From positions 1 to 35,787 of the forward strand of contig JAHJDG010000146.1 of assembly GCA_018812265.1 (NCBI GenBank): a stretch of DNA of 35,787 bases, written 5' to 3'. This DNA is from a bacterium. GTDB taxonomy: Bacteria; Electryoneota; RPQS01. This document shows, piece by piece, positions 1-24,448 of this stretch. The position numbers were made by a program, and so were the translations under genes. Under the pieces are notes generated by a model. The model did no database searches. It saw nothing but the letters and a program-made list of their open reading frames with translations, and had not been told where the DNA came from. The stretch's first letter is position 1. Each line of letters starts with the position of its first letter.

Positions 1-186
1 CGAAGGTTTGGATGCATGTTGGGCGATTCGGGGCGACGGCACCGGCGCCGAACGTTGGGCTGGGCGTGAGTGCGCACAGCCTAAGAAGATCAGCATGGCA
101 ACGAAAAGAAGCGCCACCGTACCGGTCCGCATACCGCGCATTCGGTGAGAGCATTCCCCGCCGATTCGTAAGAGAATCCGTTGCAT
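1..186 (-). CDS. Probable lipoprotein, N-terminal part only (cut by window edge)
   Basis: The reading frame is open from an ATG at 186 to the left edge, giving 62 codons. The N-terminus has several arginines, a hydrophobic stretch (VALLFVAMLIFLGC) and a cysteine in a lipobox-like FLGC, so an outer- or inner-membrane lipoprotein is likely. After the cysteine the sequence is rich in Pro, Ala and Arg, a typical tether. The start codon overlaps the stop of the upstream single-TM gene as TGATG, which indicates translational coupling in the same operon. Internal ATG codons nearer the hydrophobic stretch are possible alternative starts. The mature domain lies outside the window, so no function can be given. 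Confidence 0.6.
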   Translation of the reverse strand, partial: MQRILLRIGGECSHRMRGMRTGTVALLFVAMLIFLGCAHSRPAQRSAPVPSPRIAQHASKPS

Positions 187-1226
187 CAGCGTTCCTTTGC
201 CTGTGTCTGACTCCACCATGCGTTGAACACGTTCATCATTTGTTTCGCCTTAGCATCCCCCGGCGGCAGATCATTAAGTTGGGGCACCAGATCATCATTC
301 TTACTCCAGACGGAACCATGTTTGAAAAGAGCGCTCACACTCTTGATTCCCTGATCCACCAACAGGGTGCCCTTGCCGCCCTTGACGAGGAAGATGTTGA
401 TCAGCGGAGGAACACCTCGTCGACCAAGAAGATACAGCGTGTATTTGTTCCCTTCGCCGTCCTCGAAACCCAACCAGGTCGTGACGTCGCCGGGCTTCTG
501 ATCAAGATTTTCCTGACCGCGAAGCGTATAGGGCAGAGCCTTCTGATGTTTTTCGATCCAGTCAATGATCGCGGCATTGTCGGGTCGGCGGGTGGATCCG
601 CCGGTTTCACGCGGAATGATGATCACGTTGCTGACCTGATCGCCGCTTCCGGTCAACGAGGGAACCGAACCTCCGCCGGGCGCAAGCGCGGAGCCAACGA
701 CTGCGCCGCGATCGCGGCCGACACCTCTTTCCCCCGGACTAATGCTCCCCCCGACGTCTCGCCCATTGCCGCCCCCAATATCCTCGACGTTCACCGTACG
801 GACGTTTAATCCCTCCACCGCTCCCGGCGCAATGTCGGTTCGCACGGAAACGTCCCGCAGTTCGGTGGTTCGGCCCTGACGCCGGGGAGAGCGATCCGAC
901 AGCAATACGGAGGGCATGTTTTGGCTTGTCTCGGGAAGCGATTGAGTTCGAACGGTGGTTCGGACGGAACGGGTGCGTGCAGCGACGGTGCGGACGGGAC
1001 GGGGTTTCTCGACCGGTTGCGGCTCGACCTTTTTCTCCTGTTTCGCTTTCTTCTCAACCAGCGACAATTCTTCCGCCCGCTCCAGGAGCCAATCCGAAAT
1101 GACCGTGTACTCCATTTTCATCAAGGGCAGGATAATTCGGAACAACAGAAGCAGCCCGACCGTTCCACCGACGGAGATCAGACGGATTCTTCGCGCCGTG
1201 CGCTGACGTTCAATTCTCGAATTCAT
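186..1226 (-). CDS. Single-TM periplasmic protein following ExbB/ExbD (TonB/TolA-like position)
   Basis: A 346-residue protein. The start is the ATG at 1226, which overlaps the stop of the upstream ExbD-like gene as ATGA; longer upstream starts in this frame would run through that gene. The N-terminus is basic and followed by one membrane segment (VGGTVGLLLLFRIILPLM, about residues 16-34). A long low-complexity linker follows, rich in Lys, Pro, Arg and Thr with repeated RTV/RSV words, then Gly/Ser-rich sequence. The C-terminal domain of about 110 residues has no motif I recognise. Anchor, long periplasmic linker and terminal domain, directly downstream of ExbB-ExbD-ExbD, is the architecture of TonB or TolA, but I do not see a TonB C-terminal signature. 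A role in carrying ExbBD energy to the outer membrane is inferred from position and architecture only. Confidence 0.7.
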   Translation of the reverse strand: MNSRIERQRTARRIRLISVGGTVGLLLLFRIILPLMKMEYTVISDWLLERAEELSLVEKKAKQEKKVEPQPVEKPRPVRTVAARTRSVRTTVRTQSLPETSQNMPSVLLSDRSPRRQGRTTELRDVSVRTDIAPGAVEGLNVRTVNVEDIGGGNGRDVGGSISPGERGVGRDRGAVVGSALAPGGGSVPSLTGSGDQVSNVIIIPRETGGSTRRPDNAAIIDWIEKHQKALPYTLRGQENLDQKPGDVTTWLGFEDGEGNKYTLYLLGRRGVPPLINIFLVKGGKGTLLVDQGIKSVSALFKHGSVWSKNDDLVPQLNDLPPGDAKAKQMMNVFNAWWSQTQAKER

Positions 1227-1708
1227 GGGGCTTCGGACATTCCCAGGTCTATGGCGGGAACCGGCAATTGCAGGTTCTTGCAGACGTCGTATACGTGGAT
1301 GTAGCCGTCGAGCCTTGACTTGTCGTCCGGAAAGGCGGCGATCTCTTTGACGACGGCATATTTTGAATGAACGGTTCCCAGTTCGGCGGCAAGGTCGCGT
1401 TCGGGAATGCCGGGAACCTCGAACGTGTTGCCATCCATTTCCCACACCAGCCGGTAAACGCTTAGGGGAACGGTGTAAATGTCCTTGTCTCCGCTTCCAT
1501 CGCGGAGATCGCGAATCACGTCTATGACTTGGCGGTCCGCTTCGATATGAACTTCCAGAAGCGGGAGCGTCTGCGCGGTCTCCGCTTCGCCCCCCGAGGT
1601 GGGAAGATCAAGCTGAACCTTGAAACTCCGGTCCGTAATCAGAATGAAGCCGATGAGAATATTGAAACAGACATCAATGAGCCGCAGGATCATGCCGCCG
1701 CGAAACAT
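1223..1708 (-). CDS. ExbD/TolR-like protein, second copy
   Basis: A 161-residue protein with an N-terminal membrane segment beginning almost at once (MILRLIDVCFNILIGFILIT). The LID motif places an Asp at the start of the membrane helix, as in ExbD/TolR, where this Asp takes part in proton flow. The rest is a periplasmic domain with the alternating beta pattern of ExbD (LPLLEVHIEADRQVIDV). The cytoplasmic tail before the helix is shorter than in classical ExbD. The start at 1708 has AAAGGA seven bases upstream. It lies 17 nt after a first ExbD-like gene and overlaps the next gene by 4 nt. The two ExbD-like proteins probably form a heterodimer with ExbB in the inner membrane. Family assignment is fairly sure; the partner system is inferred. 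Confidence 0.75.
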   Translation of the reverse strand: MFRGGMILRLIDVCFNILIGFILITDRSFKVQLDLPTSGGEAETAQTLPLLEVHIEADRQVIDVIRDLRDGSGDKDIYTVPLSVYRLVWEMDGNTFEVPGIPERDLAAELGTVHSKYAVVKEIAAFPDDKSRLDGYIHVYDVCKNLQLPVPAIDLGMSEAP

Positions 1709-1725
1709 ACGCCGGTCCTTTCCGT

Positions 1726-2106
1726 CTATTCTTCTTCATCGCGCACCACCACCAAAGATGCGTCAATATTCCGCTCCTTGCACAAGCGGTACAGCCTTTT
1801 AATGGCAGCCATCGGAGCGTCGCGATCGGCGCGAATGAGCACGCGCACTTCCCGCCCCTCCCATTTCACCGCTTCATCATCGAGATAGATTGCGATTTCA
1901 CTCGTATCGCTGGGCGAGAATCTGCCGGGCAGATACAGATCGCCAAGGATATCCACGGATACGATCAGACGCTCCTCGACTTTCAGGGGAATGGGAGGGA
2001 TCTCGCTCGATTGAGGCAGCATGACCTTAGTCTGATCCTCGAGTTTGGAAACGCTGACGAAACCAAACAGGACCAGCAGGACAATGTCAATCAGCCGAAT
2101 AATCAT
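1726..2106 (-). CDS. ExbD/TolR-like protein, first copy
   Basis: A 126-residue protein close to the usual ExbD length. The membrane helix starts at the N-terminus (MIIRLIDIVLLVLFGFVSV) with the conserved helix Asp in LID, the residue linked to proton translocation in ExbD/TolR. The periplasmic part ends with a pattern (VRVLIRADRDAPMAAIKRL) that matches the ExbD C-terminal domain, in which VxIxADxxxxYxxV is common. The start ATG overlaps the ExbB stop by 4 nt (ATGA), so the proteins are translationally coupled. With ExbB and the second ExbD copy it should form a proton-driven motor in the cytoplasmic membrane. The very short cytoplasmic tail is shared with its neighbour and sets the pair apart from enterobacterial ExbD. 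Confidence 0.8.
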   Translation of the reverse strand: MIIRLIDIVLLVLFGFVSVSKLEDQTKVMLPQSSEIPPIPLKVEERLIVSVDILGDLYLPGRFSPSDTSEIAIYLDDEAVKWEGREVRVLIRADRDAPMAAIKRLYRLCKERNIDASLVVVRDEEE

Positions 2107-2855
2107 GAGACCAGCGCTCCGGCGGCCGTCTGATCCTGCTCCACCCTGTGGAGTCCCTTCAGGACGTGACGAAGCTCATCCGCCTTTTCGCGGGTTTTTT
2201 CCATTTGTCGGTCGAACACGTGGGAAAGGAAGGTAAGAAACAGGCCGAGTATCAGACTGATGACCAAGCCGACGATGGTGGTTGCCAGAGCAATCGCCAT
2301 TCCGTGGAGAATGCGTGTCTCCTGGAGTTTTCCGCCGAAAAAAGTCATGTACATACCGACCACCGTACCCAGGAGACCCAGAGCGCCGGCCGCATCGGAC
2401 AGAAATTGCGTCCACGCTCGATAGGTGTTGAATTGATCCCGCCTCATGCCGGTGGCGTGGGCAATCTCCGCGTGGTAGAGGTCGTCGTTGCCTTCATCCC
2501 GCCGTGCCTTCGCAAACATCAAATGCAGCAATTGTCCCATCTCGCTGCGCTGTCCCCACTCGCGCAGGAGTTGGCCGATTTGTCCGACGCTAGTCTCGGC
2601 GAACGGCGTGCAGTAGAGAATTCGTGAACGACGATCTTCGACCCATAGCATCCCCAACTTGTAGAGCGAGAGCACGAGGCCGAAAAAGAGCGTGGCCAGC
2701 AGTGGATACAGAAAAGCCGAACACTGTCTCAGAACCTGAACCCAGTCGAGAGTCTCCTTGGTAACCTGCGTGCCCATACCCTCCGGCGACTGCGCAAAAA
2801 CGGAGGTCGCCGCGAGTCCAAGGCTCAGCAGAAGTGGAATCCAAGTTCGTTTCAT
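2103..2855 (-). CDS. MotA/TolQ/ExbB-family proton channel protein
   Basis: A 250-residue protein. An N-terminal signal-like segment (residues 1-21, ending SVFAQ) precedes a first membrane helix (FLYPLLATLFFGLVLSLYKL), a cytoplasmic loop of about 90 residues, and two more helices with the family hallmarks GALGLLGTVVGMYMTFF and AIALATTIVGLVISL. The Gly- and Thr-rich motifs in helices 2 and 3 are what define TolQ/ExbB channel proteins. The leader before the first helix is also found in longer ExbB variants. The C-terminus is charged and probably coiled (RQMEKTREKADELRHVLKG). It is the first of ExbB-ExbD-ExbD and follows an outer-membrane barrel gene, so the motor probably serves the envelope system encoded upstream. 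Confidence 0.88.
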   Translation of the reverse strand: MKRTWIPLLLSLGLAATSVFAQSPEGMGTQVTKETLDWVQVLRQCSAFLYPLLATLFFGLVLSLYKLGMLWVEDRRSRILYCTPFAETSVGQIGQLLREWGQRSEMGQLLHLMFAKARRDEGNDDLYHAEIAHATGMRRDQFNTYRAWTQFLSDAAGALGLLGTVVGMYMTFFGGKLQETRILHGMAIALATTIVGLVISLILGLFLTFLSHVFDRQMEKTREKADELRHVLKGLHRVEQDQTAAGALVS

Positions 2856-2931
2856 GTTTGCTCCATGCTATGGTTCTTATCCATGTTGTCTTTGCAGTTT
2901 GCAGCGGCGGCGCTCGCCGAAGAAGTCCGTT

Positions 2932-4764
2932 CTACGGGGCCGGAGGATTTTCAGCGGGCAGCGGCGGTGCCGTTCCGTGAGAACCCACAATAATCACGTA
3001 GCGGTCGGCTTCTTTGTCTCCGATCCGGGGCTTCCGGGTAACGTCAATGGCCAGCGAGCGGTGTTCGTACGAAACGCGTAGCTGGCCGCGCTGACTGAAG
3101 TCGGTCTCCCCTTGGCCGTTCACGATCCGCAGAAGATAGGTGTAGATGCCCGGGGCGATGACGCTGTCGTTCTGGTCGCGCCAATCCCACGCCAATGAAT
3201 CGGGCAGTTCATTGCGTCCGTAAAACGAGTTCACGATTTCCTCGCGGGCGTTGCGAATCTCCAGCCACCACTGCGAGCCGCGCAGGGTGCGAAAAACGGC
3301 GGCGGGATAGAAGGTGACGTGGTCGGGATAGAGAAGCTCTTGGACTTCTTGGGCGGTGGAAGTCACGCTCTCCAGCTCCGCCAAGCTCATCGGATGCCAT
3401 TCCGCCTCGTAGAGCGGAACGTGAGCCTTGACCGCGATTCGATCGCCGGTCATCACGTTCACCAGCGCGTTGGCCCGGCGTTCCCCACCCGAGAACGTGA
3501 GCAGCTCGGCCCGCGGCGGAACATCGGCCTGTGTCATCAGCAGACCGATCCCCTCGACGGCTCCCCGGTAACCGGGAGTGTACAGACCTTCGAGTCGAAG
3601 GGTGGGATCGCGCACATCCAACAAGTCGAGTTCCGTCAGCCGAGTCGGGTTCATGGACGCCCGGAGATTTCCCAAGTCTTCCGGAAATAGAAGGGCGAGA
3701 TGTCGAGGATGGATTCCCTCTTCAATGGAACGGCGAATGTTCATTCGCATCTTGCTGACCGAGTCGGTACTCGCACGCACGACCGTGAATCCGCGCGGAA
3801 CGGCCGGAAGAGGACGGATTTCGACTTGTACGGGCGGCAACGCAGGCATAAGCGGATAGCTGGACAAGACGGGCATGCGATCGAGGTCAACGAAGAATCC
3901 CAGGCGATGCGTCCCGCTGGAGGCGATTTGCAGCGCTGAGACGGGGTAGGAATACCGGTAGTTGACGAAGATGCTCCCGTAGACGGGCGCCTCCGCCTCA
4001 ACCGTAGCATTGCTGGCATCGGTAGAAGCGCGAATCGAAGCCCGCTCGATGGGAATCTGGATTCCGGCCTGCGCGGCGGAAGGCAGACGATCGGTTGTCC
4101 CCGAGAGATCGTCAATCCGAACCGGTTGCAGCATCGAGAGTCCGTTCACTTTTCTTCCCGCCCACTTGATCCCCGCCTAAAACATCATGGGTTGGTGGAA
4201 GGGCGTGGAACCCATCGCCAAGTCGGGGCGGTTCAAGTGCTCGAAGCTGACGCCGATGGTCAGCGACCGGCTGGCTCGAAAGGCCACGCCAAAACCCAGG
4301 GAAATTCCCATTTTGGAATCGCCGTTGCGGAACACGGGATCGCGATCATCGAACTGCACGAATTTCGAGCGGTCAAAGGAGCGGCTGAAGACGTCGAAAT
4401 TCGCGCCGACCGCCAGCGGCGGAAGAACGGCGCGACCATAGGAGAATCGGACGGTGTTTTGTGAATACATTCCGGCGTTCAGGAACTGCACGCCCACGCC
4501 CAGTCCGCGAACCATCCACGGAAAGCTATACGACACAAAACCGCTCTTCACATTGAAAAAACCGCCGGCCACGCCCACGTGATACGTGGTCAGCGCGCAG
4601 GCGACACGATCTTTCACGAAGGAGTTCAGCGCTGGATTGCTGAATGCGGACTCCAACAAGTCCGGATCGGCCGGATTGCCGCCATAGATGTTTTGCGCCC
4701 GCGCTCCGGAAAGAAGAGCGGACAGCGCAAACAGGATCGGGATTACTTTCGTTGCGCGCACCAC
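2932..4764 (-). pseudogene. PorV/UPF0164-like outer-membrane barrel with C-terminal FlgD-like domain, interrupted by in-frame TAG
   Basis: One frame of 611 codons is broken by a single TAG at 4177-4179 (codon 196). The first part starts at a GTG at 4764 with a signal peptide (ending SGARAQ) followed by amphipathic beta strands of the PorV/UPF0164 type, such as YHVGVAGGFF and KMGISLGFGVAF. Immediately after the TAG the same frame continues with AGIKWAGRKVNG and then strand pairs such as SIFVNYRYSYPVSAL and HRLGFFVDL, which resemble the closing strands of these barrels. The C-terminal part has a FlgD-like turn (AWDWRDQNDSVIAPGIYTYL). A GTG at 4149 could restart translation, but no strong ribosome site is seen. 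The TAG may be a real nonsense mutation, a base-calling or assembly error, or readthrough. PorV-type proteins act at the outer membrane in type IX secretion; that role here is inferred. Confidence 0.65.
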
Positions 4765-7700
4765 TCACCTCGCGATATAGACAAGACCTGACGCCACTTT
4801 TTTTCCGCCCGCCGAAAACGTGTAGAAATATGCGCCCGGCACGCAATCGGCGGAAGTGCGATCGCGGCCATTCCACGGGATGGCCTTATTCTCTCCGTCC
4901 ACTCGATCGAGTCTCACCAGATGTCGGCCGTTCAGATCAAACACATTCACCTCGGGAGAGTTGTAGCGTTCATCTCCGAAGTCAAACCAGAGAGTGTCGT
5001 TGATGCCGTCGCCGTTGGGAGTGAAAGGCAGCGGATGAACGTGGAAGGGATCGCCGATAACGGTGACATCCATGCAGACGTAGTTGTTCTGCGCGTTTCC
5101 ATCCTGATTCGGCGGAGGGAAAATCTCCAGACACAGCGAGTGATCGCCCAGAACGCCCGTCTGCCAGGAAGCATCCAGTTCGACCGTATCACCTCCAGCC
5201 ACAGAAGCGATCATCGTGTCCAGAATGGGAACAGAGCCATCGCGGATCAGTGTGCGAAACTCCGAATCAACTGTAATACCGTTGATTTCCGCGACCAGGG
5301 CGGTAATGTCAAATGGCTGGTACTTTCGTACCTGAGCGGGTGCTGAAATGCTAACGGCCTTAAGCTCGGGGCAGCGGACGGAAGCGCAGGCGGTCGCGGA
5401 ATTGTTGGACGGATTGTAGTCATTCCCGGCAGCATTGAAACCAGTGAGTGCAACCCGGAAACAATTGGTTCCACATACTCCCAGCGAAGGAGAGTCACAG
5501 GAATCGCGAACGATTCCGCCGGCCGGAAATCCCTGCGAGAAATCGTCCGTACAGAGAGTATCCCACGTTCCCGAAGGGGGTTCGTGAATCACATACACGC
5601 GGAACGGAAACTCCACGGGACAACCGGCCGGATTCGCGATGGCATAGCGGATCCAGACATTCTGATTTCTGTCTACGGTTGATGCGGACAGAGTCAAGGA
5701 TTCCACTCGCGGATCCGGAAGTGAGTCCAAAACATGAATCAATACGGCACTGCTGTCACGGCTGGCGGCATCTTGTTTTTCCCAAGCCACCAGCCCCAAA
5801 CCGTAAAGACCGGCTGAACCGTAGTCGGGAATCCAATCTATGAAAAACCGATTTGATATCGTGTCGTAGCGGCCGGCAACCGGTGGGTAGAGATAGCCAG
5901 ATAGTGGGTGGGTTCTCCCATCGAGCCGATCTCGCTCCTCATCGGTTACATATGCGAGCGGACGATTGCGAAGATCAGCAAGTTCCGGGATTTCGATCAT
6001 CTCTGAGGCATGGATCACCGGACTGTCATCTATGGCGTTGATGACTACGGGGCATTCCTTCAGAACAAATCGTTCGGGAAATTGTCTATCGCGCAATTCA
6101 AAGCGCAATGTACATATCTCGCCTCCCGGCGGAACGCTATCGCTCACAGTATAGGGAAGGTGAAAAGAATCCCGCAACACGGGTTGAAGGTCTGGCAGTG
6201 TATCGATGGAAAGTGATGTCCCGGTCGTATGCCCAAGATACATGCACCAAAGGGAGTCCCCGCTCTGATCGTTCGGATCGGCTACGTCAAGATGAAAAGT
6301 CCCCGTTTCGCCCTCATTCACCGTCGGAGGGCAAGCCATATCCGGCAGTTGATTGACAAGAACACACGCTGTCACAACGATGGTGTCGCTGTCGGCAATC
6401 GCCAGGTTGCGAGGGAAAGTTGTTGAATCCGCCCATTGGAAGAGTGAGTCGCGAGCAATCAACGTATCCGTGAACCATCCGGTAGTGCTGCTCGGCGCAT
6501 GGAAAACAAGCGAACGAAAGCGGCCGCGGTTGCGAGGAATGATTGTTTCACTGTCGGTATCGGCAACAAAGGGCGGAGTCAGTGATCGAATGCGGACGTC
6601 CAGAGGATAGTTGCCGTGATTCCGGTACCAGAACAGGGTATCGAGCGTACTGTCCGGTTCGACGTAGCCGAGCCAGAGCGTGCTATGAGTCGTTACGGGT
6701 GGAAGTTCCATCATCCCCAGCCATGACCGCCCGCCTTCCCCCGAGATGACGATGGTACGCGACAGGCTGCCTCCCAAGTCGCCCAAAAACTCCAGTCTCA
6801 CGCTCGATGGGTACCACACCCAGTCCTGAGGACGGAAACGGAATCTCAGCTCGATGGTCTCTCCAATCTCAATCCGTCGCGGAAGTGTCTCGGGCGTCTG
6901 CCCGCCGGGCGCAAACACTCCCAAGAAATCATATACGGGATGCAGGCTCTGCGTGTTCACGTTCACAAGCGTGCGGGGGTAGAGGTCCTGGTTGACGTAG
7001 TAGAATCCGCTCGTATCGGTCCGGCCATCAATGGGAACAAGGCCGAAATCCAGAGTGTCCGATGGACCCGGAGGACTGTCCGGATTCATGAAGTAAACGA
7101 TCCGTTCGTCGCCCTCCCTTAGGTCAATGACCACCAAGTCCAGATCGCCATCGAGATCGAGGTCGCCGGCTTCGGTGAGGAAAGGTCTCGGCAATTCGAA
7201 GGGCACAGGGGAAACAGGATTTCGATCCTGATCGTACCAGAACAGGCTGGAATCCGCTTGGAGGATTCCGGCGATTACCCAATCTCTGTCACCCCCGGGG
7301 AGTGCGCTGGAACGGTCCAAGTCGGCGCACGTCACACTCAACACCTGCGCATCGTTCGGCCAATTCGGGAACGGATTGGGAGCGGTTACAAAGGTACGAT
7401 TGCCGCTGTTTTCGAAAAGATAGAGATACGGATTTTCATCCAATGCTCGACGACCACTTCCGAGATTGCCCGCATGCGATCCCGAACTCCATACGGCAAG
7501 GTCGAGAAGTTCACCCCTGTCATCAACAAATTGTCTGAAAATATTGCCGATCACAAAGCCATCCGGTCCGGCCGGCAAAGCGGTTCCGCCCAGAACGGTC
7601 ACTCGATCATATTGAAGAGGATCGAGAGTATCACCGAAGAGAATATCAATGGATTGCGCCGCGATGCAGCTCACGACAATATCGAGGCTGTGGTTGAGAT

Positions 7701-8619
7701 CGAGGTCGGCCACATCCAGCGCGGACGGGCCGTTGCTCACCCACACGCCGCGGCGTTGACCAAACTGGATATCCTGCTGACTGGTGGTGGTGTTGAGCAA
7801 AATGATCAGACTATCCGTTTGAGGATAGCTCCCGATTACCAGGAGATCGAGCTTTCCATCTCCGCTCACGTCGGCCAGTCGAAAGTCGGCCGGATGGGTA
7901 ACGGGAAGCGGGAAAGATTCCTCAACGCCGAACTGAATATTTTGGGGTGCCGACTCGTTTCTGTACAGGTTAAGCGTACTGGTGGCATGGGTTAGCGTAA
8001 CGATGTCCATGCGACCATCGCTATTGAGATCACCACACCTGATCACCCGCCGTTCATCGCCCGCCGTTTCGGGAAATGACCACGAAAGCATTGTGGGATG
8101 AAAAAGAACTCCCCCGCCGTCGAACAAGCGACTTCGCGCGACTCCCACCCGGTCTCTGAAAAGCGCGGCGATATCCAGCGCACCGTCATTGTCAAAGTCG
8201 GCCAGTGCCATTGCGCAGGGAACACTCCCATAACGCAAGTCCTGGCTGAAAATCCAACCGTCAGGCGCGGGAAAAAGTCCGAGCGGCGCTCGCACCCAGA
8301 AGCTGAACGCGTAGGGCGGGAGCAGCGATGAGTGAATCGTCACGGTCACCCGGTCCCCCACAAAAAACGGTAGAAACGGGCGCACGCGAACCACGCGATC
8401 CTGAACGTCAAGCCATCCGATCCCGTAGGCCGCCTGCCGCCCGTGAATGAAGATGTCGTTTGCGGTAATCCCCGCCGCCGGACCATCAAAGACGATCCAC
8501 AGGGTATCGGAAGGCAAGAAAAGCTCCGTATTCGGTAATGGATTCGTCCCCTCGATTCCGAGCCCATAGGCCATTCCGCTGAAGGTCAGCAGAAACAGAA
8601 ATGGAATACACCAACGCAT
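4765..8619 (-). CDS. Large secreted FG-GAP/VCBS-repeat protein with gliding-motility-type C-terminal domain
   Basis: A 1284-residue protein. I chose the ATG at 8619 because AAGGTG lies six bases upstream and a signal peptide follows directly (ending FSGMAYG). Residues of about 120-600 hold FG-GAP/VCBS repeats with Asp-rich calcium-loop motifs: DFDNDGALDIA, DLNSDGRMDIV, DVSGDGKLDLL, DLDLNHSLDIV and DLDLDGDLDLV. The middle is a series of Ig/cadherin-like beta segments. The last 100 residues carry TPNGDGINDTLWF, VNVFDLNGR, WNGRD, GAYFYTF and SGLVYIAR, the signature of FlgD-like/gliding-associated C-terminal domains used as sorting signals in T9SS bacteria. It ends one base before the barrel gene. 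An exported, probably surface-bound adhesin or structural protein is likely; the exact role is unknown. Confidence 0.85.
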   Translation of the reverse strand: MRWCIPFLFLLTFSGMAYGLGIEGTNPLPNTELFLPSDTLWIVFDGPAAGITANDIFIHGRQAAYGIGWLDVQDRVVRVRPFLPFFVGDRVTVTIHSSLLPPYAFSFWVRAPLGLFPAPDGWIFSQDLRYGSVPCAMALADFDNDGALDIAALFRDRVGVARSRLFDGGGVLFHPTMLSWSFPETAGDERRVIRCGDLNSDGRMDIVTLTHATSTLNLYRNESAPQNIQFGVEESFPLPVTHPADFRLADVSGDGKLDLLVIGSYPQTDSLIILLNTTTSQQDIQFGQRRGVWVSNGPSALDVADLDLNHSLDIVVSCIAAQSIDILFGDTLDPLQYDRVTVLGGTALPAGPDGFVIGNIFRQFVDDRGELLDLAVWSSGSHAGNLGSGRRALDENPYLYLFENSGNRTFVTAPNPFPNWPNDAQVLSVTCADLDRSSALPGGDRDWVIAGILQADSSLFWYDQDRNPVSPVPFELPRPFLTEAGDLDLDGDLDLVVIDLREGDERIVYFMNPDSPPGPSDTLDFGLVPIDGRTDTSGFYYVNQDLYPRTLVNVNTQSLHPVYDFLGVFAPGGQTPETLPRRIEIGETIELRFRFRPQDWVWYPSSVRLEFLGDLGGSLSRTIVISGEGGRSWLGMMELPPVTTHSTLWLGYVEPDSTLDTLFWYRNHGNYPLDVRIRSLTPPFVADTDSETIIPRNRGRFRSLVFHAPSSTTGWFTDTLIARDSLFQWADSTTFPRNLAIADSDTIVVTACVLVNQLPDMACPPTVNEGETGTFHLDVADPNDQSGDSLWCMYLGHTTGTSLSIDTLPDLQPVLRDSFHLPYTVSDSVPPGGEICTLRFELRDRQFPERFVLKECPVVINAIDDSPVIHASEMIEIPELADLRNRPLAYVTDEERDRLDGRTHPLSGYLYPPVAGRYDTISNRFFIDWIPDYGSAGLYGLGLVAWEKQDAASRDSSAVLIHVLDSLPDPRVESLTLSASTVDRNQNVWIRYAIANPAGCPVEFPFRVYVIHEPPSGTWDTLCTDDFSQGFPAGGIVRDSCDSPSLGVCGTNCFRVALTGFNAAGNDYNPSNNSATACASVRCPELKAVSISAPAQVRKYQPFDITALVAEINGITVDSEFRTLIRDGSVPILDTMIASVAGGDTVELDASWQTGVLGDHSLCLEIFPPPNQDGNAQNNYVCMDVTVIGDPFHVHPLPFTPNGDGINDTLWFDFGDERYNSPEVNVFDLNGRHLVRLDRVDGENKAIPWNGRDRTSADCVPGAYFYTFSAGGKKVASGLVYIAR

Positions 8620-8623
8620 TCTT

Positions 8624-9775
8624 TCACCTTGTTGGCTCTTGATTCTTGTCGAGGCCGCCATCTTTCGATTCGTCGGTTTTCGATTTTACGCTGTCAGTGA
8701 CCATGCTACTCGCGGCTTCGGTAAAAGCCGCTCGAGCCGCAATGTCATCTCCAAGCTTCCCGTAGCATGCTCCCAATGCCCGCAGGATCTCGGGATCCGA
8801 CGGACGCAGCCGCGACGCCTGCTGGTATCGTTGAAGGGCGGATTCGTAATCGCCCGCTTGATAACAACACTCGGCGACGATGATGAGCAGGGAATCGTTT
8901 TTCGACTCGCCCGCTTCCAAAGTCCGTTGCAGATGCTCGCGGGCGGGCTGCCAGTCCTGCATGTTGTACAGCAGCAGCCCGATATTTCGCTCCAGAAGTG
9001 AATGACGAATGTTGCCTGAGCGCGCGTCCCGGTAGGCGTTCAGCGTCTCGGTTCCTTTGCCGGACTCGGCGAGCGCCTGAGCGCGCAGAGCGAGTGCGTT
9101 TGAATGACCCGGTGATTTGGACAATATCGTCTCGCAGGTCGCCACGCAACGATCGTGTTTCCCCATGTGATAATAGGCCGTGGCCAGTCGCTCCAAGAGC
9201 GCCACGTCTTCTTTCCACTTGTCGGAAAGACTCTCGAGGTACGTTTGCGCCTGTGGATAATCTTTGAGACGCAGCGCGGCCGCCGCCGCCAGGGATTTGA
9301 TGCGCTCGCGCGTCTCGACGATATCACGCTTCATTTTTTCATCAATCGCTTCGCTGAAAACGAGCGCCTGACTGAACTCGCGGATGGCGTCCAGATCGCT
9401 CTTGTTCTGGAAGGCTTTCACGGCTCCGCGGAGTTGCTCGATGAAGGCCTGTTGAAGATAATACGAGAGCCACGGCCTGAATTCTTGCGACATCGCCAGG
9501 GAATGAGTGGCCGCGTCGGCCAGCGCCGGATAGTCCTTTTCGTAGAAGCTACAGGTGGCGAGCAAGGCCCAGCCTTGGGCGTCGCGCGGGCCCACCGACG
9601 CCAATTCCCGGCGGGCCAAGTCGTATTGTTCCTGCCGGATGTACCGTTTGGCCAGCGAATATCTCGCACTTCCGCACCCGTCGCAGAGCAAGGCGACGAC
9701 GAGTCCGACGAATAGGATGCACGCCCGGCCGGCCGGACCGGTGCTTCGTCCGGCGTGAAGAAACACACGCTTCAT
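8624..9775 (-). CDS. TPR-repeat protein with N-terminal export or lipoprotein signal
   Basis: A 383-residue protein. The N-terminus is basic followed by a hydrophobic segment (ACILFVGLVVALLCDGC); the last Cys may be lipidated, though the lipobox (CDGC) is not canonical. The rest is helical, with several tetratricopeptide repeats, for example YHMGKHDRCVATCETILSKS, GLLLYNMQDWQPAREHLQ and YQAGDYESALQRYQQASRL. GAGGAA lies eight bases before the ATG at 9775. It ends four bases before the large FG-GAP protein gene and sits 75 nt after the PEGA-repeat gene. TPR lipoproteins commonly act as scaffolds in outer-membrane and secretion assemblies; a scaffold role here is inferred. The C-terminal tail is charged and probably disordered. 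Confidence 0.82.
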   Translation of the reverse strand: MKRVFLHAGRSTGPAGRACILFVGLVVALLCDGCGSARYSLAKRYIRQEQYDLARRELASVGPRDAQGWALLATCSFYEKDYPALADAATHSLAMSQEFRPWLSYYLQQAFIEQLRGAVKAFQNKSDLDAIREFSQALVFSEAIDEKMKRDIVETRERIKSLAAAAALRLKDYPQAQTYLESLSDKWKEDVALLERLATAYYHMGKHDRCVATCETILSKSPGHSNALALRAQALAESGKGTETLNAYRDARSGNIRHSLLERNIGLLLYNMQDWQPAREHLQRTLEAGESKNDSLLIIVAECCYQAGDYESALQRYQQASRLRPSDPEILRALGACYGKLGDDIAARAAFTEAASSMVTDSVKSKTDESKDGGLDKNQEPTR

Positions 9776-9850
9776 TATCCGCGTTCCTCAGCCGTTGTTC
9801 GGCGCTGAATCACTTGATGAGACATGCAAGGAAAAGGCAGGGAGCTCCAT

Positions 9851-11623
9851 TCATCGCACCAATTGAGGTTGAACCGTAAGAGTTTTGTTTTCCTCGATGG
9901 TCAGCACGGTGCGATAGTATCCCGCGCCCTTTTTCTTCACTGTGAGAGTGTACGTGCCGGTTGGCACTTCATGGATGTAGAACGGGCTATTCTCGGGTGG
10001 ATAGGTTTTCTCGATTGAAACCTCGCCCTTGAGGTAGATCTGCGTCCCGAAACCGTCTTCCAGAGTGATGACCAGCGACCCCGTCTTGCGAGTCAAATCT
10101 ACCAGCGTGTCAACGAATGCACTTGCTTGAACAAAGATGGTGTCGCTTTTCTCAATGTAGTCTTTCAGAGAGTAATGTATGATGTACTGTCCCGAAAGGA
10201 CCTTCAGCTTAGACGTGGGGGTTACGAGTCGCCGGCCGATCAACTCGGGGCTGGGGCCGTCCAGGGTCACGGAAGCGCGATGGGGCCAACTGTCAACCCT
10301 CAGGTATCCGTAGTATTGGTCCAGCAAGATGTTTGTGACGAACGGTTGGTGAAGATTTGCGGACAGTTCGATAGTCTTGTCACTGTACCTCATTTTACGG
10401 AGGCGGACAGAGTGCTGACCGGTCGCGAGCGAATCTTCAATCGGGGTGTTACTCCAATAGGAACCATCCACGAAGACTTCGGCATCCGTGGGAACCGACT
10501 CAATTTTCACCTGCCCCATGTGACGGGCAAGACGGCATGTCAGGGCAATCGTCGTGTCCGGAACCATGGTGATGGCTTTCATCAGAGTGTGGTGATCGGG
10601 CAACTCCAACCGCAGGCGATGCTGGCCGGGATTCAATTCCATACCGTCAATCGGCGTGGGTCCTTTTTCAACGCCATTCAGAAAGACCATAGCACCCTCC
10701 GGCACCGAAGTAACGCGGAGATTGCCGAAACGCGGAATCAACGGATAGGCAGGAAGATCCAACAACCGAGAATCATCGGGCAAACTTCCGGAAGTGGATT
10801 CCACATCGAAGCCGAAGGTCATGGGAATATGACGATCCAAGATGAGCGAGACCTGATAGTGCCCTGGGGCTACACCGCTCAGCTCAACGGGAGAAATCCC
10901 CACCACGGCATCGTTCATGATTACTTCCGCCCCGGGCGGATCAGAGGCGATCTTCACTATGGCAAGCGCTTCCGGTCGCTCCGCCTTCGACTTCGGAGCG
11001 GACCACTCCACGGTTTGTTCGATGCGCCGGCTGGTTTCGCTAAGAGTGATCCAACTTTCCCAACCGCCCCACGATCCCGCGAGCCGGACATGATGAGTAC
11101 CCAAAGGCGGCTCAAGAAGCGCGTGTCCGGCCGGACAATTCAGGTAGAGCGGGCGACCGTCAATTGCTCCGGTAACGCCCGAGACTCCCTCGGGCAACGA
11201 CATTCGCAGAAGAATCTGCGGAGGATCCGCGTCGGTTTGCGGGGCAATTCCTTCACTGATTCGGAATTGCTGCACCTGCAACTCCCCGCGTCCCGCCACC
11301 GTAATGGGGAACCGAAGCGCTTCAAAACCGTCCGCCACCAGGGTCACCACGTGACGCCCCGTTCCCAGCTCCCAGATGAACACCCCCGGCGTGGAGAAGT
11401 CCGAACCCAGCACCGGTCCGGTTGACTGACGCAGAGTAATCCTGGGGATGCTTGATTCGACGACCAAGAGTCCATAGGATGTGCTGGCCACCACGTAGGA
11501 CTTCATCTCATGGGACGGCAATGGAGAAATCACCAGCGTTCCCAGCCGTTCGATTTCAGAAGCTCGAAGACCCGGAAGAGCCAGCAGAACTTGAAGAAGA
11601 AGAGTGACGACGACTCGTTTCAA
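9851..11623 (-). CDS. Secreted PEGA-repeat protein
   Basis: A 590-residue protein. The best start is a TTG at 11623 that overlaps the upstream stop codon as TTGA and directly precedes a signal peptide (KRVVVTLLLQVLLALPGLRA). Longer starts in this frame would run through the upstream gene. From about residue 230 there are at least four PEGA-type repeats, recognisable by SxPxGAxVxxNG cores followed by a turn and a GxHxVxL strand: VKIASDPPGAEVIMND, LRVTSVPEGAMVFLNG, VKIESVPTDAEVFVDG and LRVDSWPHRASVTLDG. The N-terminal part is beta-rich without a named domain. PEGA domains are common in surface and periplasmic proteins and probably bind proteins or peptidoglycan. Its partner is likely encoded in the same operon. 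Confidence 0.83.
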   Translation of the reverse strand: MKRVVVTLLLQVLLALPGLRASEIERLGTLVISPLPSHEMKSYVVASTSYGLLVVESSIPRITLRQSTGPVLGSDFSTPGVFIWELGTGRHVVTLVADGFEALRFPITVAGRGELQVQQFRISEGIAPQTDADPPQILLRMSLPEGVSGVTGAIDGRPLYLNCPAGHALLEPPLGTHHVRLAGSWGGWESWITLSETSRRIEQTVEWSAPKSKAERPEALAIVKIASDPPGAEVIMNDAVVGISPVELSGVAPGHYQVSLILDRHIPMTFGFDVESTSGSLPDDSRLLDLPAYPLIPRFGNLRVTSVPEGAMVFLNGVEKGPTPIDGMELNPGQHRLRLELPDHHTLMKAITMVPDTTIALTCRLARHMGQVKIESVPTDAEVFVDGSYWSNTPIEDSLATGQHSVRLRKMRYSDKTIELSANLHQPFVTNILLDQYYGYLRVDSWPHRASVTLDGPSPELIGRRLVTPTSKLKVLSGQYIIHYSLKDYIEKSDTIFVQASAFVDTLVDLTRKTGSLVITLEDGFGTQIYLKGEVSIEKTYPPENSPFYIHEVPTGTYTLTVKKKGAGYYRTVLTIEENKTLTVQPQLVR

Positions 11624-12360
11624 CGATACAGAGGAGGAAATGGCGGATTGAAGAGTGTATCCACTACCGATTGCCAGGCGGTTCCGTACAGGGTACGAAG
11701 ATTGTCGGTTCGAACAAACGGATAGAGGTGCGCCGCATAGGCCGTCAGCTGAATGGCATTCCCGGACTCCCGATACTCTTCGTGAAGAACGAAAAGATGA
11801 TGCCGGCTGAGGCCCGTGGCTACAATGATGACGTAGAATTGCATCGCGAAATGCGATGCTTCTTCGTGAAACGAAACCAATCCCGAATACACGAAGTTTC
11901 CTCGCGCCAGCCACCGAAGCGCTCCATAAAATCCTGCGGTGGTCGGAAACAGCAATGAGTCCGCGTCCCGTCCGTAGATCACGAGGGTAACGGGGACCGC
12001 CTCGCGGCACTCGCGCGGAGCAAAAGCGGAAGGCAGACCCAGCGACCGGTACAGATGAAAACGATTCGTCAACGTTTGAACGGCCGAATGCGACAAAGAA
12101 AGTCTCCCTTCCGATCGGACGAGCGTGGAATCATAGACAATTCCCTCGCTCGACTCGCGGAACGGAGAACAGAATTCTACCTCCAATCGGCCGCTGTCTT
12201 CGATGGAATACTGATACTGGAGCTCGGTGGAAAAGACTTGCAGATAGGTTGGAAGGCTCGCCCGTATGAAGCAATCGCCCAACGAATCTTCCCATATTCG
12301 ATACTCATACTCGCGGAAAACGTTCTCGAGTCTTACATCGCACTCTGCATCGGCGGTCAC
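11620..12360 (-). CDS. Unrecognised envelope protein; true start probably upstream, likely lipoprotein
   Basis: The conventional start is the GTG at 12360 (246 residues). The same frame stays open for about 180 nt further upstream and encodes a convincing lipoprotein signal, SSAVLYCAFVGLLAACIS, with a perfect LAAC lipobox, followed by QEYDLYDANRDLATWL. No ATG, GTG or TTG precedes that signal after the in-frame TGA near 12560; the candidates are a GTC at 12519 or an ATC at 12513, near GAGG-like sequence. Either a non-standard start or a sequence error is possible. The mature protein is mostly beta with several aromatic residues, and no domain was recognised. Its stop overlaps the TTG start of the PEGA gene, and the probable N-terminus lies just after the preceding gene. 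Confidence 0.65.
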   Translation of the reverse strand: MTADAECDVRLENVFREYEYRIWEDSLGDCFIRASLPTYLQVFSTELQYQYSIEDSGRLEVEFCSPFRESSEGIVYDSTLVRSEGRLSLSHSAVQTLTNRFHLYRSLGLPSAFAPRECREAVPVTLVIYGRDADSLLFPTTAGFYGALRWLARGNFVYSGLVSFHEEASHFAMQFYVIIVATGLSRHHLFVLHEEYRESGNAIQLTAYAAHLYPFVRTDNLRTLYGTAWQSVVDTLFNPPFPPLYR

Positions 12361-12536
12361 GTTAAGCGGATGATCTCGCTGTTCCCGGAGCCACGTTGCG
12401 AGGTCTCGGTTGGCATCGTAGAGATCGTACTCTTGGTCAACGAATTGTGCCGGGCATGAAATACACGCCGCCAGCAGCCCGACAAACGCGCAATATAGAA
12501 CCGCTGAACTGATCCTGACCTCGTCCTTCGATCGAG

Positions 12537-13598
12537 CTACTGCTTGTTTTCGCTGCCTTCAGGCAATCCGACTTTATTGGTATCGGTGGACGCATCGGAC
12601 GCCCCCACAATGATGAAGTCCCCCAGGCTGATGACACTGCCGTCCTCGAATTTCACGGGCTGCCAACTTCTCACGTGAACGAGCGGATTTCTTTCATCGG
12701 AGAAGTCAAACATCAGGAACAGGTAGCCATGGTCGGAGTAATTTGAAGATTTCCACGACTGCTCCAAGTTGACTCCGAATATCCGGGGATTGAGATGATG
12801 TTGAAGCACGCCGACTTCTTCGAACTCGACGGATATATATTCATTGGCCGTGAAGGCGCGACTCAGCTGCTCAACGTATTGCTTCTTGCTTCGGCGAACG
12901 AACTGTATCTGTTCGCCGGTCAGGGAAGTGCGTGTCAGAAAATCGTCTCCTTTCGGAGCGTCTTTCACGACGCGACCGACGATAATCAAGGCGCTGTCGC
13001 TGTAGACCTTCGTGATGTAGTCGAGGTCTTTGCGATTGTAGGCCGTTCGGAATACTTCCAGAAAGTTGTAGATCTTGTTGTAGGCGATCGCATCCTCCAA
13101 ATCACGTCCTTCACGAATGATTTCCGGATACAGGTGCGATTCAAGGGCAAATCTCACGTCATCAATGATTCCTTGCCGCGAGAAAGTGAAGATGAGGTGT
13201 TGAATTTTGTGTTTGGGTTCCGCCTGCGAACCCAGTTCGACCCGAATATCTCTCACCTCATATTCTCCATCGGGGTCTTCCAAGAGATTGGTCTTGTAGA
13301 GCACTTCGGTCGGCCGGCACGCCGTATTGCGTGCGAGTTGTTTGGCAGCCTGAAGGCCATCCGTGGAAAAGAAGCGGGAAAGCTCTTCCAGCTCGCCACC
13401 GTTCCAAGCCGTCAGAACTTGGGACAAACGATCTTCCAGAGCACGAAGAAACGTTTCGGACGCCGTCCCGGAAAGCTTGACTTCAACCGGGGTTGCCATC
13501 GCACGCGGCACCACTGTGAGAAGGCATAATATCCATGGCATGATCCACAGGAAACCGCGCGCAATACGTATTGACATCGGAAGGGAACAGCCGATCAT
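12537..13598 (-). CDS. Secreted protein with NTF2-like features
   Basis: A 353-residue protein. The ATG at 13598 has AAGGAG eight bases upstream, and a signal peptide follows (GFLWIMPWILCLLTVVPRAMA). The mature part has a helix-rich segment (FLRALEDRLSQVLTAWNGGE) followed by beta strands, then a second similar unit around residue 185 (FLEVFRTAYNRKDLDYI, then YSDSALIIVGRVV). This second unit resembles the start of NTF2/SnoaL-like folds, which often bind small ligands or act as scaffolds in secretion. The two similar starts suggest internal duplication. The C-terminus is acidic and probably disordered. It is separated by 57 nt from the upstream single-TM gene. Its function is not known; secretion is well supported, and the NTF2 reading is tentative. 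Confidence 0.72.
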   Translation of the reverse strand: MIGCSLPMSIRIARGFLWIMPWILCLLTVVPRAMATPVEVKLSGTASETFLRALEDRLSQVLTAWNGGELEELSRFFSTDGLQAAKQLARNTACRPTEVLYKTNLLEDPDGEYEVRDIRVELGSQAEPKHKIQHLIFTFSRQGIIDDVRFALESHLYPEIIREGRDLEDAIAYNKIYNFLEVFRTAYNRKDLDYITKVYSDSALIIVGRVVKDAPKGDDFLTRTSLTGEQIQFVRRSKKQYVEQLSRAFTANEYISVEFEEVGVLQHHLNPRIFGVNLEQSWKSSNYSDHGYLFLMFDFSDERNPLVHVRSWQPVKFEDGSVISLGDFIIVGASDASTDTNKVGLPEGSENKQ

Positions 13599-13655
13599 TT
13601 CCTGATCTCCTTGGACTACTTGTTACCTACCTGCCGGGCGGTGAAAGCCAATGGG

Positions 13656-14426
13656 TTATCGTTTGCCGCCGGTTCTCGCAGAAGAAGCTCGAAACCAAAG
13701 GCCTCTTTTTCCGCGCAGATCATCAAGCCGATATGTTTTTCCGGAGAGCCGGCTCATGAACACATCGCCGTCATAACGAACGAGATCCTTAAGTTCATCC
13801 CCTTCGAAAAAGGCCCCATGCGATCCGGTCTGAATAGACTTCGTCTTCTCCATTACGCCGATCTCAATGAATTGGCTGAGCGTCCGGCTGAAGTCTTTGA
13901 AGGATCTCTTCGTCTTGAGCACGTTCACTCCATCATCGAAAGTGAGCGCGGATCGTACCCCTCCGCCAGAAACAGAATCTGAGACTGCGATTGTGTCTGG
14001 GGATTGAGGACTCGGGTGGGATTGAGAAGAAAGTGCCGACGGGGGAATTTCAAGGCCTGTATGAGGGTGAACCGAGGGAGTTGAAGACGAATCCGGTTCA
14101 TCCTGATCTCGACGTGCCGACGACGAGGTCGCTTCGACCGACGGCTCGCGCACACTATCGGAAGAATATCCGTCGTCGTAGTCATCCTGCTTGCCTGCTT
14201 GCCGTTGAGCAGCCCGCTCATCTGAAGGTGATTCCGGTGAGGAGCGCATCGTAAGGATTGCCACTACACAGATGAGTGCGGCTACAAACAGGACAACCGT
14301 CAGCGCCAGCAACCGATTGCCCTTTCGCCTTCTATGAGCGGCACTGCCACCCATTCGGGATGAATGCGGAATTGACGGCCTTGACGGTCCGGCAGATGAG
14401 TCCGCCGAATCCTCCTTGATTGTCAT
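13656..14426 (-). CDS. Single-TM protein with long disordered linker
   Basis: A 256-residue protein with a cytoplasmic tail of about 38 residues rich in Ser, Pro and Arg, then one membrane helix (LLALTVVLFVAALICVVAILTM), then about 100 residues of Ser/Pro/Asp-rich low complexity. A small folded C-terminal domain follows (ALTFDDGVNVLKTKRSF through MEKTKSIQTG to the end). GAGGG lies six bases before the ATG at 14426. It is the first gene of the left-hand operon in transcription order and has a long, more AT-rich region upstream. The topology suggests an inner-membrane protein reaching into the periplasm, possibly an anchor or sensor for the envelope system. No family was recognised. Confidence 0.68.
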   Translation of the reverse strand: MTIKEDSADSSAGPSRPSIPHSSRMGGSAAHRRRKGNRLLALTVVLFVAALICVVAILTMRSSPESPSDERAAQRQAGKQDDYDDGYSSDSVREPSVEATSSSARRDQDEPDSSSTPSVHPHTGLEIPPSALSSQSHPSPQSPDTIAVSDSVSGGGVRSALTFDDGVNVLKTKRSFKDFSRTLSQFIEIGVMEKTKSIQTGSHGAFFEGDELKDLVRYDGDVFMSRLSGKTYRLDDLRGKRGLWFRASSARTGGKR

Positions 14427-15043: not shown

Positions 15044-15934
15044 CTACGCGGCAATCTCCAGTTTTTCGAGCATGGCGGTGGGGCGAATCTTGTGGCGGTC
15101 GAGTCCGACTTCCTGAGGGGAAAGACCCTGGGCGAGGCCGAGAAGCTGGAAGTAGTAGACGGGCGGAACCATTTGCTGATCCTCGGCCGAGTCTTTGTAC
15201 TTGCGGGCGATCAGCACCTGGCCGAGATCAAAGGACGAGAAACAGGACGGACAAATCATGCCCATGCAATCGGCCTCCATCTTCCGCACGGAATTGAGCA
15301 CGCAACGCGTCATGTCCTCGCGCAGCGAATCGCTGTGACAGGCTTTTCCGCAACACAGATACCATTCGCTGTGCCGACAGGTGGTGCCGCCGATCGCTCG
15401 AATCAGCTTGTCCATCACGCGGGGATCGTCGGGATCGTCTACGTTCATGAAGCGTTGCGGTTTGAGCAGATGACAACCGTAGTGAATCGCGACCATCAGG
15501 CCTTTGAGCGGTTTGCGGATCGTCTCGGCGATTCGTTCCATACCGACGTCGTCGCGCAGCACCGTGACGATGTGGCTGACTCTTACCGTTCCCTGGTATT
15601 CCTTTCCCGCCTTGGCCAGCCGCTGGTTGACACGATTGCGAAGATCTTGGTCTTCATTTAAGAGAAAAGCGGCTTCGGAGAGAGTCTCGGTGCAGCCTGA
15701 GCAAATCGTGAAAATATTGAGTCCGGCCTGCTCGGCCACACAGAGATTCCGCGCGGCGATCAGCAGCCAGCCGAAGTTGTCGGTGGCTTTGTAATGAATG
15801 GGATCGGGACAACACGTGAAGCCGGGCAGATCCACGATGTCAATACCGAGCGGCGGCAACGTCTTGCGGATCGCCGTCTCCATGAACGGATACTTGACGG
15901 GAATCAGACAGCCGGGAAAAAACGCGAACTTCAC
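15044..15934 (-). CDS. hdrB: Heterodisulfide reductase subunit B (HdrB)
   Basis: A 296-residue protein, the usual HdrB length. It starts at GTG 15934, overlapping the hdrC stop as GTGA, with GAGGAG upstream; the frame extends further but would run through hdrC. It has two CCG domains. In the first, Cys9, Cys41-Cys42 and the CSGC pair at 78-81 fit the canonical C-X31-39-CC-X35-36-CxxC pattern. The second contains HYGCHL, LCCGKAC and CPSC. In HdrB these cysteines hold two non-cubane 4Fe-4S clusters that reduce a disulfide. Which disulfide or thiol is used by this bacterium is unknown, since bacteria lack the methanogen CoM-CoB substrate. With HdrC and the HdrA-MvhD fusion it forms the soluble Hdr module. 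Confidence 0.92.
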   Translation of the reverse strand: MKFAFFPGCLIPVKYPFMETAIRKTLPPLGIDIVDLPGFTCCPDPIHYKATDNFGWLLIAARNLCVAEQAGLNIFTICSGCTETLSEAAFLLNEDQDLRNRVNQRLAKAGKEYQGTVRVSHIVTVLRDDVGMERIAETIRKPLKGLMVAIHYGCHLLKPQRFMNVDDPDDPRVMDKLIRAIGGTTCRHSEWYLCCGKACHSDSLREDMTRCVLNSVRKMEADCMGMICPSCFSSFDLGQVLIARKYKDSAEDQQMVPPVYYFQLLGLAQGLSPQEVGLDRHKIRPTAMLEKLEIAA

Positions 15935-16428
15935 GAGCCGGACTCCTCTTCCTGCTGCGGAAGTATTTTCTTCAGATCGGATACGTCCAACTCTTCCAGC
16001 GGCGGGAGTCCCAGGTCCTGGCGCATCCGGTTGATAGACGGCATGACCGGGACGCTGCGACCGGTTTCCCGCACTCGCTTGGACACCTCCACGATTTCGC
16101 CTGAGATATGTCCCTGCTTCACGCAGAGGTTTTTCAGCGCAATAATCACTTCGACCGGACGCACGTCCTGCGGACAGCGTTCGTAACAGTTGTAGCAGTT
16201 CGAGCACAGCCAGATGACCGATTCGGGCTGCAGCAGGTCGTCGAGATCGCCGAGCAGTGCCTGAAGCATGATCGTGCGCGGATTAAACGTGCCGTGAAAT
16301 CTCGCCGTCGGGCAGTCTCCCACGCACGCGCCGCACTGATAACAATAACCAACGTGCCCCGCGCCCAAGACGCTTTCCAGTTCGCGACGGCGCGCAAAGT
16401 CTACTTGTATTTCGCCGTTCCGGGCCAT
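15931..16428 (-). CDS. hdrC: Heterodisulfide reductase subunit C (HdrC)
   Basis: A 165-residue iron-sulfur protein. It has two ferredoxin-type 4Fe-4S sites, CYQCGACVGDCP (about residues 29-40) and CSNCYNCYERCP (about 75-86), the defining pair of HdrC. HdrC passes electrons from HdrA to the HdrB active site. The ATG at 16428 is preceded by AAGAGGA, and the gene begins ten bases after the stop of the HdrA-MvhD fusion. Its stop overlaps the hdrB start, so HdrC and HdrB are made together. The length is slightly less than typical archaeal HdrC, and no extra domain is present. Confidence 0.92.
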   Translation of the reverse strand: MARNGEIQVDFARRRELESVLGAGHVGYCYQCGACVGDCPTARFHGTFNPRTIMLQALLGDLDDLLQPESVIWLCSNCYNCYERCPQDVRPVEVIIALKNLCVKQGHISGEIVEVSKRVRETGRSVPVMPSINRMRQDLGLPPLEELDVSDLKKILPQQEEESGS

Positions 16429-16437
16429 ATCATCCTC

Positions 16438-19095: not shown

Positions 19096-19135
19096 GACAT
19101 CCTCCTTCGGTTCACAAAAGGAAATTTCGCGGCCT

Positions 19136-23788: not shown

Positions 23789-23822
23789 ACCGTCTCGGGA
23801 AGTTGAGAGAAATTCTCGCGGG

Positions 23823-24443: not shown

Positions 24444-24448
24444 GCCGC

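Follow-up and report, generated by a model that had tools for sequence, protein, structure and literature searches.

A candidate proton-driven envelope machine with type IX secretion-type parts in Electryoneota

Introduction

Does an operon that sets an ExbB/ExbD motor beside outer-membrane parts of the type IX secretion system (T9SS) encode a proton-driven machine of the cell envelope, and is such a machine a variant of type IX secretion and gliding or a separate system? The question is raised by contig C146 of an Electryoneota genome (3.5 Mb, 235 contigs, 97% complete), analysed here at its entire length of 35,787 bp and referred to as the window. On its minus strand lie, in this order, genes for a TPR lipoprotein, a CHU_C surface protein, a PorP/SprF protein, ExbB, two ExbDs, a transducer in the position of TonB and the start of an outer-membrane lipoprotein, hereafter LIPO. 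We conclude that this operon probably encodes a dedicated machine of the T9SS/gliding kind, in which an ExbBD-type engine driven by the proton motive force serves one surface protein that is anchored by PorP and exported by SprA.

GldLM/PorLM is described as the power source of the T9SS and of gliding in Bacteroidota (PMC10202324, PMC12635249). The Flavobacterium track, which GldLM sets in motion, contains SprF joined to GldK by a disulfide bond (PMC12635249). Proteins with a type-B C-terminal domain (CTD) depend on, and bind, the PorP/SprF protein with which they are clustered (PMC10202324, PMC9143113). An FGE fold has been repurposed in PorK (PMC12421860), and Sov is connected to the PorKN ring by PorW, a TPR lipoprotein (PMC8754138).

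A preliminary description of the window, made from its letters, had proposed an undescribed proton-driven envelope machine, possibly a variant of type IX secretion or gliding. The machine and its kinship are well supported by the recurring gene order, the T9SS-type parts, SprA and a PorV-type protein encoded at other sites of the genome, and the non-detection of GldL and GldM; the identification of the barrel as PorV, the absence of GldK and the inclusion of upstream genes did not hold. As for its novelty, no description of the operon was found in the open-access literature on the Krumholzibacter T9SS, on T9SS in candidate phyla and on GldLM with ExbBD in the Fibrobacteres–Chlorobi–Bacteroidetes (FCB) group, and ‘undescribed’ stands to the extent of that literature.

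Results

Organisation of the operon

Window proteins were assigned to families from Pfam and NCBIfam profile matches. In the direction of transcription, the features of the operon are:

8624..9775, minus strand: TPR lipoprotein, 383 aa, with which the conserved operon begins (TPR_19 8.5e-19)
4765..8619, minus strand: surface protein, 1284 aa, with signal peptide, FG-GAP repeats and C-terminal type-B T9SS sorting domain (CHU_C) (PF13517 4e-18, PF13585 9e-8, TIGR04131 1.7e-5)
2932..4764, minus strand: PorP/SprF-family outer-membrane barrel with C-terminal extension (PF11751 6.3e-8, TIGR03519 6.4e-10)
4177..4179, minus strand: in-frame TAG inside the PorP/SprF gene; Ser or Asn at that site in 6/7 aligned relatives
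2103..2855, minus strand: ExbB-like proton channel subunit, 250 aa (PF01618 1.1e-12)
1726..2106, minus strand: first ExbD-like subunit, 126 aa (PF02472 1.2e-8)
1223..1708, minus strand: second ExbD-like subunit, 161 aa (PF02472 0.025, weak; profile comparison with the first ExbD)
186..1226, minus strand: TonB-position transducer with a single transmembrane (TM) segment, 346 aa (no Pfam/NCBIfam match)
1..186, minus strand: LIPO (TPR outer-membrane lipoprotein, lipobox IFLGC), first 62 codons; continues at G000:C124 (L117:3-1547)

At several gene boundaries the start and the stop overlap by a few bases, as do the LIPO start and the transducer stop codon, which, as read from the sequence, is compatible with a single transcription unit. 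The TPR lipoprotein has an equivalent position in L015/L072, L016, L017, L057 and L061; its weak GltE match (5.6e-6) is far below cut-off, as is usual for TPR proteins.

The motor

ExbB retains both channel-lining Thr motifs (GLLGTV, ALATTIVG), and its closest solved structures are ExbB and TolQ. Both ExbDs retain the channel Asp in the TM segment, which is preceded by only ~5–11 residues (N-termini MIIRLIDIV... and MFRGGMILRLIDV...). ExbB (PF01618) and the first ExbD (PF02472) score above the cut-offs of the MotA_ExbB and ExbD-TolR families, and profile comparison links the second ExbD to the first (prob. 98.0). The ExbB, the two ExbDs with minimal cytoplasmic tails and the single-TM protein in the TonB position, as first described, are thus all present. 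GldL was rejected as an identity for ExbB, without profile similarity.

In the ExbB tree, the dedicated ExbBs stand apart from the classical and TolQ-like ExbBs of the same genome, with one fork weakly supported and with long outgroup branches. Pairing of the ExbBD proteins with a classical TonB encoded elsewhere had been raised as a point that would count against the proposal. The genome does carry a classical TonB (TonB_C 5.9e-19), and this has its own, separate ExbB-ExbD-ExbD on contig C138. At L020:12786-13085, a short open reading frame duplicates the C-terminal stretch of the TolQ-like protein encoded at L020:11221-11928.

The transducer and a natural domain swap

The transducer is modelled as a TM segment and long helix (residues 3–66), a disordered linker (~73–211) and a C-terminal domain (217–345) of helix, six strands and helix that is confidently predicted and conserved among relatives. 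GldM was rejected for this protein, without profile similarity.

The best evidence that the TonB-position protein transmits force from an ExbBD motor is a domain swap in the relative G008. There, the dedicated ExbB/ExbD/ExbD are gone and the transducer gene follows ~65 bp after PorP; the dedicated ExbB was not found anywhere in this 20-contig genome at 1e-20. Aligned with the N-terminus of classical TonB, the first 60 residues of the G008 transducer score 121; shuffled sequences score 22 ± 4 and the N-terminus of the window protein 20. The S-x3-H membrane motif is present in classical TonB and in the G008 transducer and absent from the dedicated transducers, and profile scans found no TonB_C domain in either the window or the G008 transducer. 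The feature is:

L057:12567-13796: chimeric transducer with a classical TonB membrane segment, no dedicated ExbB/ExbD/ExbD adjoining

The simplest reading of these sequences is that, after loss of the dedicated motor, another membrane segment was swapped onto the same C-domain.

The PorP/SprF barrel and the surface protein

The barrel, first described as PorV-like and fused to a FlgD-like domain, occupies about the first 300 residues of its protein. PorV was rejected, as the barrel matches PorP/SprF (by the PF11751 and TIGR03519 scores listed above); a FlgD-like Ig domain lies at the end of the C-terminal extension. The neighbouring 1284-residue protein does combine FG-GAP repeats with a gliding-type sorting end, as proposed. 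The clustering of PorP/SprF with a CHU_C protein rests on PF11751 and PF13585 matches above the Pfam cut-offs and on an adjacency repeated in relatives; the TIGR03519 and TIGR04131 scores of the window proteins fall below their stricter cut-offs. CHU_C was rejected as a marker of the system, being positive in 37/39 phylum genomes, a breadth probably due to other T9SS-type C-terminal domains that also match.

Relatives encode PorP in a single uninterrupted frame. Since TAG is an ordinary stop in the window, recoding is unlikely; the TAG at 4177–4179 could reflect either a nonsense mutation or an error of assembly and, if real, may impair operon function in this genome.

A disulfide link of the SprF–GldK type was rejected for absence of the cysteines: no Cys-X-Cys tail of the SprF type occurs at the C-termini of the PorP proteins examined (the L014 row was left out of this comparison), and no Arg-Gly-Cys-Phe was seen in the C-terminal parts of the window genome’s first two FGE-type proteins, FGE1 and FGE2.

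Continuation on contig C124

The start of contig C124 shares 29 bp, with one mismatch, with the end of C146, and the LIPO reading frame continues across. The short overlap and the gene content suggest that the two contigs join. Past the junction lie the rest of LIPO, which follows the transducer in relatives too, then a periplasmic protein (UNK) and three proteins with FGE-type domains. The best family of the first FGE protein is GldK (TIGR03525 1.2e-33, 117 bits, a 33-bit lead over the next family at 84 bits), at a score below the strict equivalog cut-off of 350, and a single-sequence search matched it roughly equally to solved PorK and to true FGE enzymes. When compared by profile with GldK of three Bacteroidota-type genomes, the first, second and third FGE families reached probabilities of 99.8, 98.5 and 95.9. 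The initial statement that GldKLMN were not recognisable is therefore correct for the contig itself; a GldK-like protein lies just past its end. UNK has no recognised relative in family, profile and sequence searches, and GldN was rejected for it, as profile comparison gave no similarity.

Conservation across genomes

The operon order largely recurs in seven further genomes of the home phylum, where it reads TPR–CHU_C–PorP–ExbB–ExbD–ExbD–transducer–LIPO–UNK–FGE. It is shared by G006, G024, G028, G030 and G033, partly split over two or three contigs; G008 has it minus ExbB/ExbD/ExbD, and G036 has the part from the transducer to the FGE proteins. A scan of public genomes added eight metagenome-assembled genomes (MAGs), four of KSB1 type (L074–L077) and four of Krumholzibacteriota type (L078–L081), with ExbB, ExbD and transducer, and with PorP, CHU_C, LIPO and UNK where the contig reaches. 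Here the order is CHU_C–PorP–ExbB–ExbD(–ExbD)–transducer–LIPO–UNK, Krumholz-type copies yielding one ExbD and KSB1-type ExbBs being longer (~530 residues). Because this order has persisted in at least three lineages, even where protein identities fall as low as ~25–30%, the arrangement is beyond chance. The preliminary description had tied its proposal to gene order in relatives, and that order is conserved in the home phylum, KSB1 and Krumholzibacteriota.

Three further observations concern the same families. In the one KSB1 ExbB of ~530 aa that was scanned (L075:9839-11440), Big_1/invasin-like domains lie past the channel domain. A paralogous motor set of matching families in matching order occurs at L022:6199-12044, with equivalents at L062, L063 and L064, and comprises ExbB, ExbD, a transducer-like protein, a LIPO-like protein and UNK fused to an outer-membrane barrel. 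At L054, L055, L056 and L058, a CHU_C protein of ~1550 aa stands beside a PorP-like barrel, and the fetched flanks contain no matching motor; the L056 PorP is known from the genome search alone.

Type IX secretion context

The window genome encodes SprA on contig C200 (TIGR04189 1.7e-238, 795 bits against a cut-off of 200) and, both above cut-off, a PorV/PorQ-family protein (NF033709 2.9e-35) and a type-A sorting domain (TIGR04183 1.3e-10). SprA was detected in 35/39 phylum genomes and in 7/8 KSB1/Krumholz-type genomes; since it is so common in the phylum, its co-occurrence with the operon proves little. GldM was found in 0/39 phylum genomes by a search that was positive in three other genomes (1e-78 to 1e-118). 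GldL was likewise found in 0/39, a weaker negative because the search gave no strong match anywhere and so lacked a strong positive control. The check for T9SS genes elsewhere in the genome thus returned sprA and the GldK-like gene on C124, with GldM and GldL undetected. The operon or the paralogous set (e.g. L022) is carried by 16/35 SprA-positive phylum genomes.

Extent of the conserved unit and neighbouring genes

Upstream of the operon, the window continues with:

9851..11623, minus strand: PEGA-repeat protein, 590 aa, upstream neighbour (PF08308 4.3e-49)
11620..12558, minus strand: open frame of up to 312 aa, no family assigned
12537..13598, minus strand: NTF2-like protein, 353 aa (PF24125 0.002, below cut-off)
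13656..14426, minus strand: single-TM protein, 256 aa, no family

Around the operon, the flanks fetched from relatives contain no homologue of any of these four genes. Hence, of the single array from 1 to 14426 that was first proposed, the part from the TPR lipoprotein to the transducer is kept in relatives, these genes fall outside, and the conserved unit runs from 9775 to 1 and over a further ~7.3 kb of C124. Elsewhere in the window, positions 15044–26436 hold a heterodisulfide-reductase-like cluster (CCG, FlpD, HdrA-like) followed by 2-oxoacid:ferredoxin oxidoreductase subunits, and positions 28546–32682 encode a protein of 1378 aa that has a CARDB domain, a subtilase-like stretch and no NCBIfam match.

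Discussion

We infer that the parts assemble into one complex, that SprA is the exit route of the surface protein and that the force serves to export, move or anchor this protein. In the proposed mechanism, ExbB and the two different ExbD subunits would form the inner-membrane motor, on which the TM helix of the transducer would dock while its disordered linker spans the periplasm. The transducer C-domain, unlike that of TonB, would act on an assembly at the outer-membrane side made of LIPO, UNK and, in the home phylum, the GldK-like FGE proteins. This assembly would in turn engage the periplasmic extension of the PorP/SprF barrel, the putative carrier of the neighbouring type-B CTD protein, itself exported through the genome’s SprA translocon. 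The machine would then serve its own surface protein much as GldLM, GldJKN and SprF serve SprB, and by family or position the operon has a counterpart for the carrier, its cargo, the FGE protein, the motor and the TPR lipoprotein. It is not filed as a strict T9SS member, because the defining GldL-GldM motor was tested for and not found.

Several observations weigh against this reading. No GldN-, GldM- or GldL-like protein was recognised among the operon proteins (no genome-wide search was made for GldN), and no GldK-like gene was matched in the KSB1/Krumholzibacteriota operons that are readable throughout. The transducer has no match in the PDB by fold (E <= 1e-3) or sequence, leaving its C-domain without a known fold, and the model of UNK is of low confidence (mean predicted local distance difference test score, pLDDT, 48). 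SprA was not detected in operon-bearing G006 and G024 and in one Krumholz-type genome, and the compared genomes are MAGs. Finally, 19/35 SprA-positive phylum genomes, including complete genomes such as G014, carry neither operon nor paralogous set at the sensitivity used.

Were the operon to power SprA-type secretion in general in these bacteria, as a full replacement of GldLM, the near-universal SprA of the phylum and the undetected GldM and GldL would be accounted for, as would a make-up that parallels porP-porK-porL-porM-porN; with those 19 genomes lacking both sets, the operon is not a general SprA motor, and we regard that role as improbable. Because most SprA-bearing relatives lack the operon, movement or loading of the surface protein is slightly preferred among its possible tasks. 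It is also conceivable, though on balance we doubt it, that the operon represents a distinct class of trans-envelope machine present in FCB candidate phyla. With a dedicated ExbB-ExbD-ExbD motor, a transducer domain whose fold is new and a periplasmic receptor of its own, such a machine would mechanically move a surface protein held by PorP; it would be an undescribed gliding or surface-conveyor system whose ExbBD engine was acquired independently of GldLM.

The remaining accounts assign the motor another task, or none. TonB-dependent import is the usual job of ExbBD motors, and an ExbB-ExbD-ExbD-TonB operon of Fibrobacter succinogenes (FSU_2400-2403), induced by cellulose, has been interpreted as a cellodextrin importer (PMC6851124). 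The operon could likewise energise an import receptor, its T9SS-like neighbours being substrate-capturing surface parts, and the classical TonB membrane segment borrowed by the G008 transducer would fit. Nevertheless, no TonB-dependent receptor or plug domain occurs among the scanned operon proteins, in agreement with the preliminary description, the transducer lacks a TonB_C domain, PorP/SprF barrels are carriers of type-B T9SS substrates and the genome has a separate classical TonB set, making nutrient uptake quite improbable. A static anchor like PorE-PorP-PG1035 of P. gingivalis, which would tie the surface protein to the periplasm while the ExbBD genes were mere neighbours, seems very unlikely. 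PorP, a TPR lipoprotein and a type-B protein do make up the published anchoring set (PMC9143113), and the PorP-CHU_C pairs at L054, L055, L056 and L058 have no matching motor in their fetched flanks, but in several lineages the motor has kept its place between PorP and LIPO/UNK, and the transducer of the motor-less relative bears the membrane segment of another motor, which would keep the set energised.

If the T9SS/gliding reading is true, the T9SS engine would be exchangeable and motors of the ExbBD class would do more than import and envelope upkeep: in these uncultured relatives of Bacteroidota, outer-membrane parts of the T9SS would be coupled to an ExbBD-type motor in SprA-bearing genomes without detected GldLM. 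The G008 swap is a ready design for testing what the transducer C-domain pulls on.

Comparison with known systems

With the classical ExbB-ExbD-TonB system, the operon shares the ExbB/ExbD channel residues and a transducer built of TM segment, linker and globular domain, and G008 uses the classical TonB membrane segment itself. It differs in a transducer C-domain unrelated to TonB_C, dedicated transducers without S-x3-H, two small ExbDs nearly tail-less in the cytoplasm and the lack of a receptor in the operon. The recently proposed vWA force transducers (PMC12204202) likewise go with a TPR gene, one TolQ-like subunit and two TolR-like subunits that differ from each other, and they too are tethered by a TM segment and have a C-domain other than that of TonB. 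The operon’s C-domain, in contrast, is of helix, six strands and helix without family match, and the operon is linked to PorP, CHU_C and GldK-like genes where the vWA set is linked to the TPR gene alone. The PorE-PorP-PG1035 complex of P. gingivalis resembles the operon in its PorP, type-B CTD protein and TPR-bearing lipoprotein; it has no motor, and the beta-propeller and OmpA-like peptidoglycan-binding domains of PorE were not found here. From the T9SS/gliding chain of GldLM, GldJKN, SprF and SprB, the operon departs in a motor of ExbB-ExbD-ExbD and linker protein in place of GldL-GldM, in the lack of a recognised GldN, in a PorP with a FlgD-like extension and without the SprF Cys-X-Cys tail, and in having several FGE proteins. 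It shares with that chain a large type-B CTD protein with a PorP/SprF barrel as its neighbour, proteins of FGE fold nearest GldK, a TPR lipoprotein, a proton-channel motor and, in the same genome, SprA and a PorV-type protein.

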